A stretch of DNA of 64,000 nucleotides from Candidatus Methanoperedens sp. GTDB lineage: Archaea > Halobacteriota > Methanosarcinia > Methanosarcinales > Methanoperedenaceae. Where the stretch lies: positions 1 to 64,000 of the forward strand of contig VEPM01000015.1 of the NCBI GenBank assembly GCA_012026795.1, read 5' to 3'. Of the stretch, positions 5,630-48,389 are shown in pieces; position 1 is the stretch's first letter, and every line of letters starts with the position of its first letter. Position numbers and translations under genes: made by a program. The notes under the pieces were generated by a model. The model searched no databases and was not told where the DNA came from. It saw nothing but the letters and a program-made list of their open reading frames with translations.

Positions 5630-5853
5630 ACTTTGACCTCTAACTGCGCCACTCCAATGAATTTTAATGGTGTAATTTCTTCTTCCCTGTCGGCTTCAAT
5701 GCAAACCTGTATCGCTTCTTTAATGCGCTCCATAGCCTGGTCTATGGTCTTACCCTGCGTATAACAACCTCTGATGTCGGGTGCTTTTACAATATACATG
5801 CCATCCTCATCTTGTTCGATGATCACACTGAAGTTTAACAATTTATGTTTCAT
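5626..5853 (-). CDS. hicB: HicB-family antitoxin
   Basis: A 75-residue protein with the HicB partial RNase H-like fold: FSVIIEQDEDGMYIVKAPDIRGCYTQGKTIDQAMERIKEAI. HicB binds and blocks HicA. It lacks the extra C-terminal DNA-binding domain found in longer HicB proteins, so autoregulation would need another element. It is the first gene of the leftward hicBA-MNT unit. A TATA-like ttTAAATA lies about 30 bases upstream of the start, which would give a nearly leaderless transcript. Confidence 0.9.
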   Translation of the reverse strand: MKHKLLNFSVIIEQDEDGMYIVKAPDIRGCYTQGKTIDQAMERIKEAIQVCIEADREEEITPLKFIGVAQLEVKV

Positions 5854-5891
5854 GTCAATCTAAGGAGTACTTATGCGATTGGTATTTAAAT

Positions 5892-45705: not shown

Positions 45706-45715
45706 ACTATATAAG
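45706..45715 (+). promoter_or_regulatory. TATA box of glnA leader transcript
   Basis: actatataag is a good archaeal TATA element. A start about 26 bases downstream (near 45737) would begin just before a long RNA stem and leave a ~300-base leader before glnA. Confidence 0.55.
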
Positions 45716-45745
45716 CCTGCAAACGGTAGCCTATAGTCGGTCAAT

Positions 45746-45838
45746 ACATATCCTCATTTGAGTTATCTCAAGTTGGGTAAAAACATTGTAAATGTTGTTT
45801 CATTGTAAGCGAATCTGAAAAACCGGATGAGGATATGT
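45746..45838 (+). ncRNA. Structured 5' leader of glnA (candidate cis-regulatory RNA)
   Basis: acatatcctcatttg (45746-45760) pairs with cggatgaggatatgt (45824-45838): 15 bp including two G-U pairs. Inside, aacatt-gta-aatgtt (45782-45796) forms a perfect 6-bp hairpin. ttgag-ttat-ctcaa (45758-45771) forms another that competes with the inner end of the long stem. The arrangement resembles a branched or switching leader. No known riboswitch class was recognised. Confidence 0.5.
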
Positions 45839-45867
45839 GGGACCATAAAATCAAAGGAGAAAAGAAA

Positions 45868-45978
45868 ATGGTAAAATCAATAAAGGATAGGCTTCCGGCT
45901 TCGGGTATCATGAAAAGGCAAAATTGGCAAAGCGGGAAAGGTAAAATGGATTTAATCATAGCACAGAATGATTTATAA
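45868..45978 (+). CDS. 36-residue upstream ORF in glnA leader
   Basis: An ATG with AAAGGAGA nine bases upstream opens a 36-codon frame (start MVKSIKDRLPASGIM, end IIAQNDL) ending at TAA, 60 bases before glnA. The product is basic and small. In Methanosarcina mazei a small protein (sP26) binds glutamine synthetase, so a similar helper or a leader peptide is conceivable. I see no sequence identity to claim. The ribosome binding site is better than that of glnA itself. Confidence 0.5.
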   Translation: MVKSIKDRLPASGIMKRQNWQSGKGKMDLIIAQNDL

Positions 45979-46038
45979 TAACAGATAGTAATAAAGTGAA
46001 AAAGATACGAAAAGTGAAAGGATAAGAAAAGATAAGTG

Positions 46039-47370
46039 ATGAATATGGTAATTACAAATGAAGATATATTAAGATCAATAGATGAAAACCAGGTCAGGTT
46101 TTTAAGACTCCAGTTTGTTGACATTGGCGGGATGGTTAAGAACGTGGGAATACCCGTATCACAGGCAGAAAAAGCACTTACATCAGGAATAGCATTTGAC
46201 GGCTCTTCGATCGAAGGATTTGTCAGGATAGAAGAATCTGATATGATCCTGAAACCTGATAATAACACTTATATGATCCTTCCATGGGATATTAACGGCG
46301 GAAAGGTGGCACGGATAATATGCGATGTTTACAGGCCGGATGGAAAGCCCTTTGAAGGCGACCCTCGCTATGTCTTAAAGAGGGCAATACAGGCAGCTGC
46401 CAAAAAAGGTTTTGTAATGAACACCGGGCCTGAGCTTGAATTCTTTTTCTTCAAGAGAAAAGACGGGCAGGCAACCGTTATCCCCCATGACTTCGGAGGC
46501 TATTTTGACTTTCCTCCCATAGACCAGGCTGAAGAGATACGGCAGAATATAGTAGTAGCCCTTGAGAACATGGACTTCAACATTGAAGCTTCACATCACG
46601 AGGTTTCCATAGGGCAGCATGAGATAGATTTCAAATACAGCGACGCGTTAAAGACGGCGGATAATGTCATTACCTTCAAGTTTGTTACCAAGACCATCGC
46701 GCAGAAAAATGATTTGCATGCATCTTTCATGCCAAAACCAATCTTTGGTATTAATGGCTCAGGTATGCATACAAATATCTCCTTATTTAAGAATGGAAAA
46801 AATGCATTCTATGATGAATCAAAGGATATGCAAGTCAGCGATACTTTAAGATATTTCGTTGGCGGCCTGAAAAAACACGTCAAGTCGTTTACTGCTGTCA
46901 CAAATCCCATTGTTAACAGTTATAAGAGGATCGTTCCGGGTTATGAAGCCCCGGTGTACATCGCATGGTCAGGGGCCAACCGCTCATCCATGATACGCAT
47001 ACCCGCAGCAAGAGGCATGAGCACCCGAATCGAACTCAGGAGCCCTGACCCGTCATGCAACCCGTATCTATCCTTTGCTGTGATCCTGATGTCAGGACTT
47101 GACGGTATTGAAAACAAGATCGATCCGGGCGAACCAACAACACTCAACCTGTTCCATCTTGATGATGAAGGACGCAAAAATCATGGGATCGAATCCCTTC
47201 CAGGCAGTCTTAAAGAAGCGCTTGATAACCTTGAAACCGACGATGTAGTGAAAGATGCACTCGGAGAACATGTCTATGAAGATTTCATGAGACTTGGAAG
47301 GGCAGAATGGGATGCATACAGGATAAGCGTACATGACTGGGAAATTAACCGCTACCTGAATATTATATAA
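46039..47370 (+). CDS. glnA: Glutamine synthetase, type I
   Basis: A 443-residue GSI enzyme that makes glutamine from glutamate, ammonia and ATP. Markers: FDGSSIEGFVRIEESDM (N-terminal substrate region), ASHHEVSIGQHEIDFKY, GSGMHTNISLF (active-site region), and NSYKRIVPGYEAPVYIAWSGANRSSMIRIP. It lacks the long form's adenylylation insert, as in the GSI-alpha type feedback-controlled in archaea. The ATG at 46039 is used; GTG at 46036 and ATG at 46045 are alternatives. The gene follows a structured leader and precedes nrpR, so nitrogen-dependent control is very likely. Confidence 0.97.
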   Translation: MNMVITNEDILRSIDENQVRFLRLQFVDIGGMVKNVGIPVSQAEKALTSGIAFDGSSIEGFVRIEESDMILKPDNNTYMILPWDINGGKVARIICDVYRPDGKPFEGDPRYVLKRAIQAAAKKGFVMNTGPELEFFFFKRKDGQATVIPHDFGGYFDFPPIDQAEEIRQNIVVALENMDFNIEASHHEVSIGQHEIDFKYSDALKTADNVITFKFVTKTIAQKNDLHASFMPKPIFGINGSGMHTNISLFKNGKNAFYDESKDMQVSDTLRYFVGGLKKHVKSFTAVTNPIVNSYKRIVPGYEAPVYIAWSGANRSSMIRIPAARGMSTRIELRSPDPSCNPYLSFAVILMSGLDGIENKIDPGEPTTLNLFHLDDEGRKNHGIESLPGSLKEALDNLETDDVVKDALGEHVYEDFMRLGRAEWDAYRISVHDWEINRYLNII

Positions 47371-47393: not shown

Positions 47394-48389
47394 ATGAACA
47401 CAACAACTATAGACTCAATGGTTCAAAGAAAACTCATAGAGATACTGCGGATACTCCATGAGAACCAGGAGCCCATAGGTGCGCGGCTTATTGCTGACAG
47501 GATGAATGATCGCGGATACCCCATTGGAGAAAGGGGTGTCCGTTATCACCTGCGCATCCTTGATGAACGCGGTCTCACGAAACGCCAGGGTTATGATGGA
47601 AGGATAATCACCGAGCGCGGGACAAAGGAGCTTGGAAATGCACTGGTCGGGGACAGGATGGGTTTTATTATAACAAGAATTGAGAAACTCATTTACGATA
47701 CTACTTTTGATCTTAAGACCGGGCAGGGAAATGTGATCGTTAATACCTCGATCGTCGATGAAAAAGATCTTGATAAAACTCTTGAGGTCATGCAGCATGT
47801 GATAAGTGAGGGTTATTGTTTCAGTCCTTTTGTAAAAATAATGGAGGAAGAGACTTCCAATCCTGATATCAATATCAATATTCCCAAAGGCAAAATTGGA
47901 ATTGCCACTATGTGCAGCATAACGATAGACGGGGTTTTGCTAAAAAACGGTATTCCTGTTACTCCGAAATACGGAGGATTACTGGATGTGAAAAACAGGA
48001 AGCCAACAGGTTTTGAGGATATTATTGTTTATAATGGTACATCTATTGACCCTATGAAGATCTTTATCTCAAGGAAAATGACACATGTGCTTGATGCTGT
48101 TGATACGGGTTCTGGAAGACTTCTTGCAAACCTGCGTGAAATCCCGATGTCATCTGTCATGGAAGCTCAAAAAGTTTTGAAATCTGCAATGAGTATAGGG
48201 ATCGCGGATATTACCCGGATCGGGGAACCAGGAATGTCGGTACTCAATGCCCCTGTTGATTCGGGAAAAGTGGGAGTTGTAGTTTATGCCGGAACGAATA
48301 TAATGGCAGCTGTTGAGGAAAGCGGAATTAATGTAGCTACATTTCCGATATCGGCGATCATGGATTTCAAGGAATTGAAAGCACTATGA
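47394..48389 (+). CDS. nrpR: NrpR-type nitrogen regulator
   Basis: A 331-residue archaeal repressor. Residues 8-75 form a winged helix (KLIEILRILHENQEPIGARLIADRMNDRGYPIGERGVRYHLRILDERGL, abbreviated pattern). Residues 85-331 form one NrpR (DUF128) effector domain with the repeated GTSIDPMKIFI and GTNIMAAVEESGINV motifs. NrpR represses nitrogen genes and is released by 2-oxoglutarate. This is the one-effector-domain form. Placement right after glnA supports the role. ACAGGA lies just before its start. Its last codons overlap the next gene by four bases. Confidence 0.9.
   Translation: MNTTTIDSMVQRKLIEILRILHENQEPIGARLIADRMNDRGYPIGERGVRYHLRILDERGLTKRQGYDGRIITERGTKELGNALVGDRMGFIITRIEKLIYDTTFDLKTGQGNVIVNTSIVDEKDLDKTLEVMQHVISEGYCFSPFVKIMEEETSNPDININIPKGKIGIATMCSITIDGVLLKNGIPVTPKYGGLLDVKNRKPTGFEDIIVYNGTSIDPMKIFISRKMTHVLDAVDTGSGRLLANLREIPMSSVMEAQKVLKSAMSIGIADITRIGEPGMSVLNAPVDSGKVGVVVYAGTNIMAAVEESGINVATFPISAIMDFKELKAL

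Follow-up and report, generated by a model that had tools for sequence, protein, structure and literature searches.

A probable cis-acting leader RNA ahead of nitrogen-assimilation genes of the Methanoperedens family

Methanoperedens archaea couple methane oxidation to nitrate. In the 64,000-nt stretch of DNA that was analysed (the window), which belongs to a 3.59-Mb genome, the glutamine synthetase gene glnA lies behind a long leader, and the question raised by this locus is what that leader does. The initial annotation had proposed a TATA box that sets transcription just before a 15-bp stem, hairpins enclosed by this stem, one of them competing with it, and a 36-codon ORF, and had suggested a new nitrogen-sensing RNA, a leader peptide or a small partner protein of glutamine synthetase. 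The leader is flanked by a DUF61 gene upstream and by glnA, an nrpR-type gene and a radical-SAM gene downstream; the window itself opens (positions 1-350) with the last part of an archaeal 23S rRNA gene, and with a 5S rRNA gene. The features of the locus are listed in Table 1.

Table 1. Coordinates of the glnA leader, its promoters and the genes behind it (positions in the window).
Feature	Position	Strand	Remarks
TATA box, promoter 1	45708..45714	+	TATATAA, 28 nt ahead of first conserved RNA base G45736
Promoter-1 box CGGTAGCCTATAGTCGG	45724..45740	+	conserved, between TATA and putative start site
Structured leader RNA	45736..45846	+	covariance-model match, 111.5 bits with R1, this RNA being one of the 12 sequences used to build R1
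Helix P1a, 5' arm GGUC	45739..45742	+	pairs with 45841-45844; 93.5% of cells paired
Helix P1b/P1c, 5' arm	45746..45760	+	stem of the initial annotation; pairs with 45824-45838
Apical core CTCAAGTTGGG	45767..45777	+	exact in 17/29 loci
Helix P1c/P1b, 3' arm	45824..45838	+	evidence as for 5' arm
Helix P1a, 3' arm GACC	45841..45844	+	pairs with 45739-45742
Shine-Dalgarno AGGAGA	45855..45860	+	in relatives, that of glnA'
36-codon ORF	45868..45978	+	probable stump of deleted glnA'
Promoter 2 of glnA (GAATGATTTATAATAACAGATAGTAATAAAG)	45967..45997	+	second TATA-type promoter, just before glnA
glnA, type I glutamine synthetase	46045..47370	+	ATG probably 46045
nrpR-type nitrogen repressor gene	47394..48389	+	HTH_12 and NRD1_2

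The 15-bp stem was present as claimed, with 12 unbroken Watson-Crick pairs followed by two U-G pairs and one G-C pair, and it proved to be the foot of a leader RNA of approximately 110 nt that is closed by an additional outer helix (GGUC/GACC). The folding energy of positions 45736-45868 was -35.1 kcal/mol, compared to -21.7 ± 3.3 kcal/mol for 200 shuffled versions; this value lies 4 SD below the mean of the shuffles, none of which was as low. The TATA box was likewise confirmed in the sequence, and at each of the 29 loci at which the RNA was counted a TATA-like box lay 25-29 nt ahead of its start; for L039, CTATTTAA at -28 was taken as this box in place of an earlier match. Judged by this spacing, transcription would start at the foot of the P1 helix, as had been proposed.

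Covariation in homologous leaders, whose absence the initial annotation had named as a refuting result, was looked for across the family loci, and the RNA came through this comparison. Two covariance models were used, R1 (built from 12 leaders) and R2 (built from 27). In the 27-row alignment 91.0% of the cells were paired, compared to 86.5% in shuffled and at most 54.6% in slid versions; 10 of 26 pairs were altered on both sides (a mean of 4.3 when shuffled and 2-8 when slid), and the covariation score was 0.190 (shuffled 0.119, with 0/500 reaching the observed value; slid at most 0.073). Within the P1b/P1c stem a 9-pair helix was 94.4% paired, and 6 of its pairs were altered on both sides. 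Since this alignment, whose sequences are related, had been fitted to the structure, an alignment-free test was also carried out, in which each 5' arm was hybridised with the 3' arms of all species. The mean for a leader's own arms was -29.2 kcal/mol, compared to -21.8 kcal/mol with the arms of other species (0/20,000 permutations), with the own partner ranking just 6th to 14th of 29 for several leaders and modestly for several close relatives. It ranked last in L062, where the model match extends past the 3' arm.

When the matched-arm test was applied to single helices, with arms cut by hand, P1ab passed (0/20,000 permutations), as did P1c (p = 0.00015; p = 0.019 with 19 sequences). P2, in which 45756-45762 pair with 45767-45773 to form the competing hairpin, showed no covariation (matched -4.48 vs -4.41; p = 0.31 with 29 sequences and 0.35 with 19) and was rejected as a covarying switch helix. 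The stem is thus established and the competition is not. The compact variants G022 and G023 also retain P1 despite their different sequence, and, on comparative sequence evidence, conservation of the long stem P1 via compensatory changes can be regarded as established. The putative competing hairpin can form, but it is unused in the predicted minimum-energy fold.

The leader RNA was found with R1 and R2 at 29 loci in 28 of the 34 genomes of the Methanoperedens family, two of these loci being in G015; GlnA matches were present in 31 of the 34. Regions upstream of glnA were read at 29 loci (L009-L037), L038 beginning inside glnA and G033 providing no locus. Reverse-strand matches of the near-palindromic RNA were not counted, nor were the weak matches in G006 (E = 0.45), G016 (E = 0.53) and G013 (E = 0.83), the last of which was discarded as chance from a raw tally of 29 genomes. 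The compact variants G022 and G023, which also score weakly (per-genome E with R1 of 0.17 and 0.46), were counted because they have the same position, the same promoter box and the same core. Among the six uncounted genomes, the stem was deleted in G005, with the promoter retained, and the apex in G013; G014 gave no glnA match at the cut-off, the G018 contig ends in glnA, and that of G026 ends inside the RNA, with an apparent 3' arm and Shine-Dalgarno sequence visible. In G033, which represents another genus within the family, the leader RNA was not found, and its glnA' likewise had no such leader. G005 and G013, both of which have no glnA', have thus lost the RNA or its apex, and the RNA is dispensable there.

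Outside the family, matches were at chance level only, as judged from these searches. Across 185 genomes of the order, R1 gave matches in the family alone (26 genomes); R2 recovered 27 family members and G172 (E = 0.044) from 237 genomes of the class, and 4 family members and G452 (E = 0.0017) from 392 genomes of the phylum, these large scans having been run with stricter filters, by which weak matches are lost. The G452 match (L179) was rejected as a distant relative and taken as chance, approximately 0.7 such matches being expected per 392 genomes; several of its P1 pairs are broken and the nearest gene behind it lies on the opposite strand. Without filters, the best R2 match among 21 glnA loci of other families had an E-value of 0.39. 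The core pattern occurred in 24 stretches among 84,980 species genomes, and the 6 that also had an R2 match at E≤1 came from archaea throughout, five under the titles Methanoperedens or Methanosarcinales (including Methanosarcinales archaeon METP1) and one as an uncultured archaeon. Within the window clade (the four nearest genomes), the five parts of the region from the TATA box to glnA differed by 5.5-11.7%, compared to 38% for the upstream flank and 20-41% at synonymous sites of glnA.

A nitrogen-assimilation gene was found downstream of the RNA at all of the 29 counted loci. The first full-length gene was glnA at 19, amtB (Pfam PF00909, 3.6e-126) at one and, at 9, glnA', a second type I glutamine synthetase gene whose product is approximately 47% identical to GlnA. 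The amtB case is the second RNA copy of G015 (contig C73; L178, approximately positions 5717-5879, minus strand), which lies ahead of the ammonium transporter gene. A 17-codon ORF separates the two, and its stop codon overlaps the amtB start (ATGGATAA), suggesting that its translation may be coupled to that of amtB. Eight further glnA' copies that were inspected (L072, L073, L075-L078, L080 and L147) follow P-II genes directly, which were recognised by Pfam PF00543 in five cases and by the same sequence pattern in three, and none of the eight has such a leader; the G026 genome carries three glnA' genes.

This gene context bears on two other readings of the RNA. That the stem is a mere 5'-end hairpin, which guards the mRNA against decay from its 5' end or sets the spacing of the ribosome binding site and whose core is no sensor, is rather unlikely: P1 does start within a few nucleotides of the TATA-inferred start at the 29 loci, and no part of the RNA is better supported than the long helix, but a plain stabiliser should not be confined to nitrogen genes, and the apical core is exact at more than half of the loci (Table 1), although it has no covariation-supported helix of its own. 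At the other loci the core differs mostly by one or two changes (12/29). The RNA might alternatively be a small RNA gene of the sRNA154 kind, acting in trans or with a dual function, and its UCUC core would then pair with the ribosome binding sites of other mRNAs. It has its own promoter, UCUC is complementary to the GAGA of Shine-Dalgarno sequences, and sRNA154 acts on glnA2 via its ribosome binding site, according to PMC11456600. We nevertheless consider this reading improbable, as a nitrogen-gene coding sequence follows the RNA throughout, the second copy precedes amtB, no T5 run occurs within 60 nt after the RNA at any of the 29 loci, and R1 and R2 found nothing credible in the other families of the order.

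A metabolite riboswitch proper, responding to glutamine, 2-oxoglutarate or another nitrogen signal and switching by exchange of P1c and P2, is a reading that can be held only tentatively. It would fit a downstream gene set of glutamine synthetase and ammonium transporter genes and an apical region that holds a conserved core, and P1c and P2 have AUUUG in common, both helices still being formable in L062 despite a change. This core is short, however, the exchange partner P2 lacks covariation support, and neither a T-run terminator nor masking of the Shine-Dalgarno sequence was predicted. Masking by the UCUC core or a P1 arm was rejected, with summed pairing of at most 0.04 in 28/28 leaders scored (L062, with no recognised Shine-Dalgarno sequence, was left out), and in the predicted fold this sequence was mostly open, with a mean of 0.72 unpaired across the 28 leaders, at least 0.8 in 11 of them and 93% in the window. 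The Shine-Dalgarno sequence is thus predicted to be mostly free and unpaired with the core, so no on/off mechanism is visible, and binding of the core by a metabolite or a protein is therefore favoured. A bolder proposal is a new archaeal riboswitch class for nitrogen status (glutamine, 2-oxoglutarate or ammonium-linked) that controls glutamine synthetase and ammonium transport in the anaerobic methane-oxidising Methanoperedens, and that was relocated or duplicated among glnA', glnA and amtB in the course of gains and losses of glutamine synthetase genes; this we regard as speculative.

The 36-codon ORF behind the RNA does have a ribosome binding site stronger than that of glnA, as had been claimed (AAAGGAGA precedes its ATG, compared to GTGATG for glnA). 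AGGAGA was found at 24/29 loci and other purine-rich forms at 4. Six of 17 homologous ORFs, the window's not among them, were clear truncated GlnA' N-termini that scored above all 500 shuffles; those of L034 and L035 read MATPTP(E/K)KLLEFIKEKNV..., which is the start of GlnA'. The protein encoded by the window's ORF showed no similarity to GlnA' (300/500 shuffles were equally good), and its DNA was identical to the 5' end of glnA' at 19 of 33 nt, a value reached by 0/20,000 base shuffles. This DNA-similarity test was passed by 6 of 7 ORFs and failed by L028 (p = 0.19). Taken at sequence level, the 36-codon ORF is probably the stump of a deleted glnA'.

That this ORF instead encodes a partner protein of glutamine synthetase, like sP26, or a leader peptide is very improbable. 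Its strong Shine-Dalgarno sequence would suit such a product, as would the window clade, in which the ORF has the same length and no gaps and its DNA diverges by 9%, below the synonymous sites of glnA. In three other species pairs, however, its DNA divergence is 2.5-21%, and there was no sign of selection at the amino-acid level: of six pairs of nearest genomes, five had a pN/pS of 1.0-1.6, on few sites (the sixth, with one change, was undefined), compared to 0.05-0.07 for glnA. Both readings are further weakened by the GlnA' stumps among the homologous ORFs, by lengths that vary from 8 to 43 codons and by sister-genus loci L036 and L037, where the RNA runs directly into glnA with no ORF between; the ORF was also not seen in L020 or L062. 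Given the 9% gapless divergence in the window clade, some constraint at the nucleotide level may remain, which speaks against a pure relic.

The promoters of the locus were compared as possible sites of transcriptional control. The promoter-1 box CGGTAGCCTATAGTCGG gave 31 matches with up to 2 mismatches in 27 of the 34 family genomes. All 25 matches with 0-1 mismatch sit at promoter 1, two of them ahead of the eroded RNAs of G005 and G013; in total 26/31 were at promoter 1, and the 5 found elsewhere, each with 2 mismatches, were comparable to the backwards control pattern (36 matches). As the matches are concentrated at promoter 1, the box is no regulon-wide operator. It was present at 24/29 RNA loci (≤2 mismatches). 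The box has stayed intact ahead of glnA in both L014 and L028, which have a deletion of the RNA stem (L014) or apex (L028), so the promoter outlasts the RNA.

A second glnA promoter was overlooked in the initial annotation; its TTTATAA doubles as the source of the stop codon of the 36-codon ORF. The motif AATG(A/G)TTTAT was found 47-75 nt ahead of the glnA match in 26/29 loci, and was missing in L018 and in the sister-genus loci L036 and L037. By eye, promoter 2 seems to contain an inverted repeat, though an imperfect one; this possible regulator site shows most clearly in loci such as L023 or L032. The NrpR-controlled glnA promoters of methanogens resemble this locus in that the window has an nrpR-type gene directly behind glnA and a conserved box between TATA and start site, but they differ in that the box is not an inverted repeat and that GGTA-N6-TACC, which we take to be the NrpR operator form, has no counterpart at the Methanoperedens glnA loci. 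Of 12 comparison loci from another family, 11 had this repeat within the 200 nt ahead of glnA, compared to 0/29 Methanoperedens glnA loci within 420 nt, where other operator forms are possible. In the comparison loci (L158 and L159-L169, probably Methanosarcina) it was seen 58-77 nt before the glnA match.

No Rfam 15 family matched at threshold. In six loci there was no match at E≤5, RF01739 included, and at E≤10 the window region gave two sub-threshold matches, neither of them RF01739. Among the literature matches listed, mostly non-subscription papers, there was no apparent description of such an RNA in Methanoperedens. The closest in role appears to be the cyanobacterial glnA RNA, a structured leader of glutamine synthetase and ammonium transporter genes according to PMC2864571. 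Together with the Downstream-peptide RNA, this glutamine riboswitch (RF01739) is alike in gene context, but it comes from different organisms, and the Methanoperedens RNA has no Rfam covariance-model match at threshold. In Methanosarcina mazei, sRNA154 is described as a nitrogen-linked RNA acting on glutamine synthetase mRNAs; by description it is a separate trans-acting sRNA, whereas the Methanoperedens RNA is a leader joined to its gene. The 23-aa sP26 of M. mazei, reported to bind GlnA1, is also a small ORF connected with glnA; compared by description, it differs from the window's ORF, which is probably a GlnA' stump and shows no sign of selection on its amino acids.

On balance, the element is likely to be a 5' leader RNA that acts in cis on nitrogen-assimilation genes and is conserved within the Methanoperedens family, an undescribed element that probably tunes these genes after transcription starts. 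Carried on the mRNA of glnA, glnA' or amtB, it would be bound at its core (CUCAAGUUGGG...) by a nitrogen-related metabolite or protein, and binding would alter translation start or the stability and decay of the mRNA. The single amtB case among 29 loci weighs against this explanation, as do the erosion of the RNA in G005 and G013, the predicted openness of the Shine-Dalgarno sequence and the glnA' copies that have no such leader. Of the proposed nitrogen-sensing RNA, the structured RNA stands and its glnA, glnA' and amtB context fits a nitrogen role; that it senses nitrogen is what we infer. The ancestral order would have been promoter 1, RNA, glnA', promoter 2 and glnA, an arrangement that G002, G011, G015 and G027 have retained. 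In the lineage of the window, glnA' would have been deleted down to its first codons, after which promoter 1 and the RNA would precede the 36-codon stump and, by read-through, a glnA that has its own promoter 2.

These findings suggest that a leader RNA may outlive its gene and then come to precede the next one. Few natural archaeal riboswitches have been predicted and fewer validated, according to PMC11549558. A defined RNA is now available for probing, and a covarying leader of glutamine synthetase genes, and once of an ammonium transporter gene, would be a concrete candidate for nitrogen control at the RNA level in archaea.
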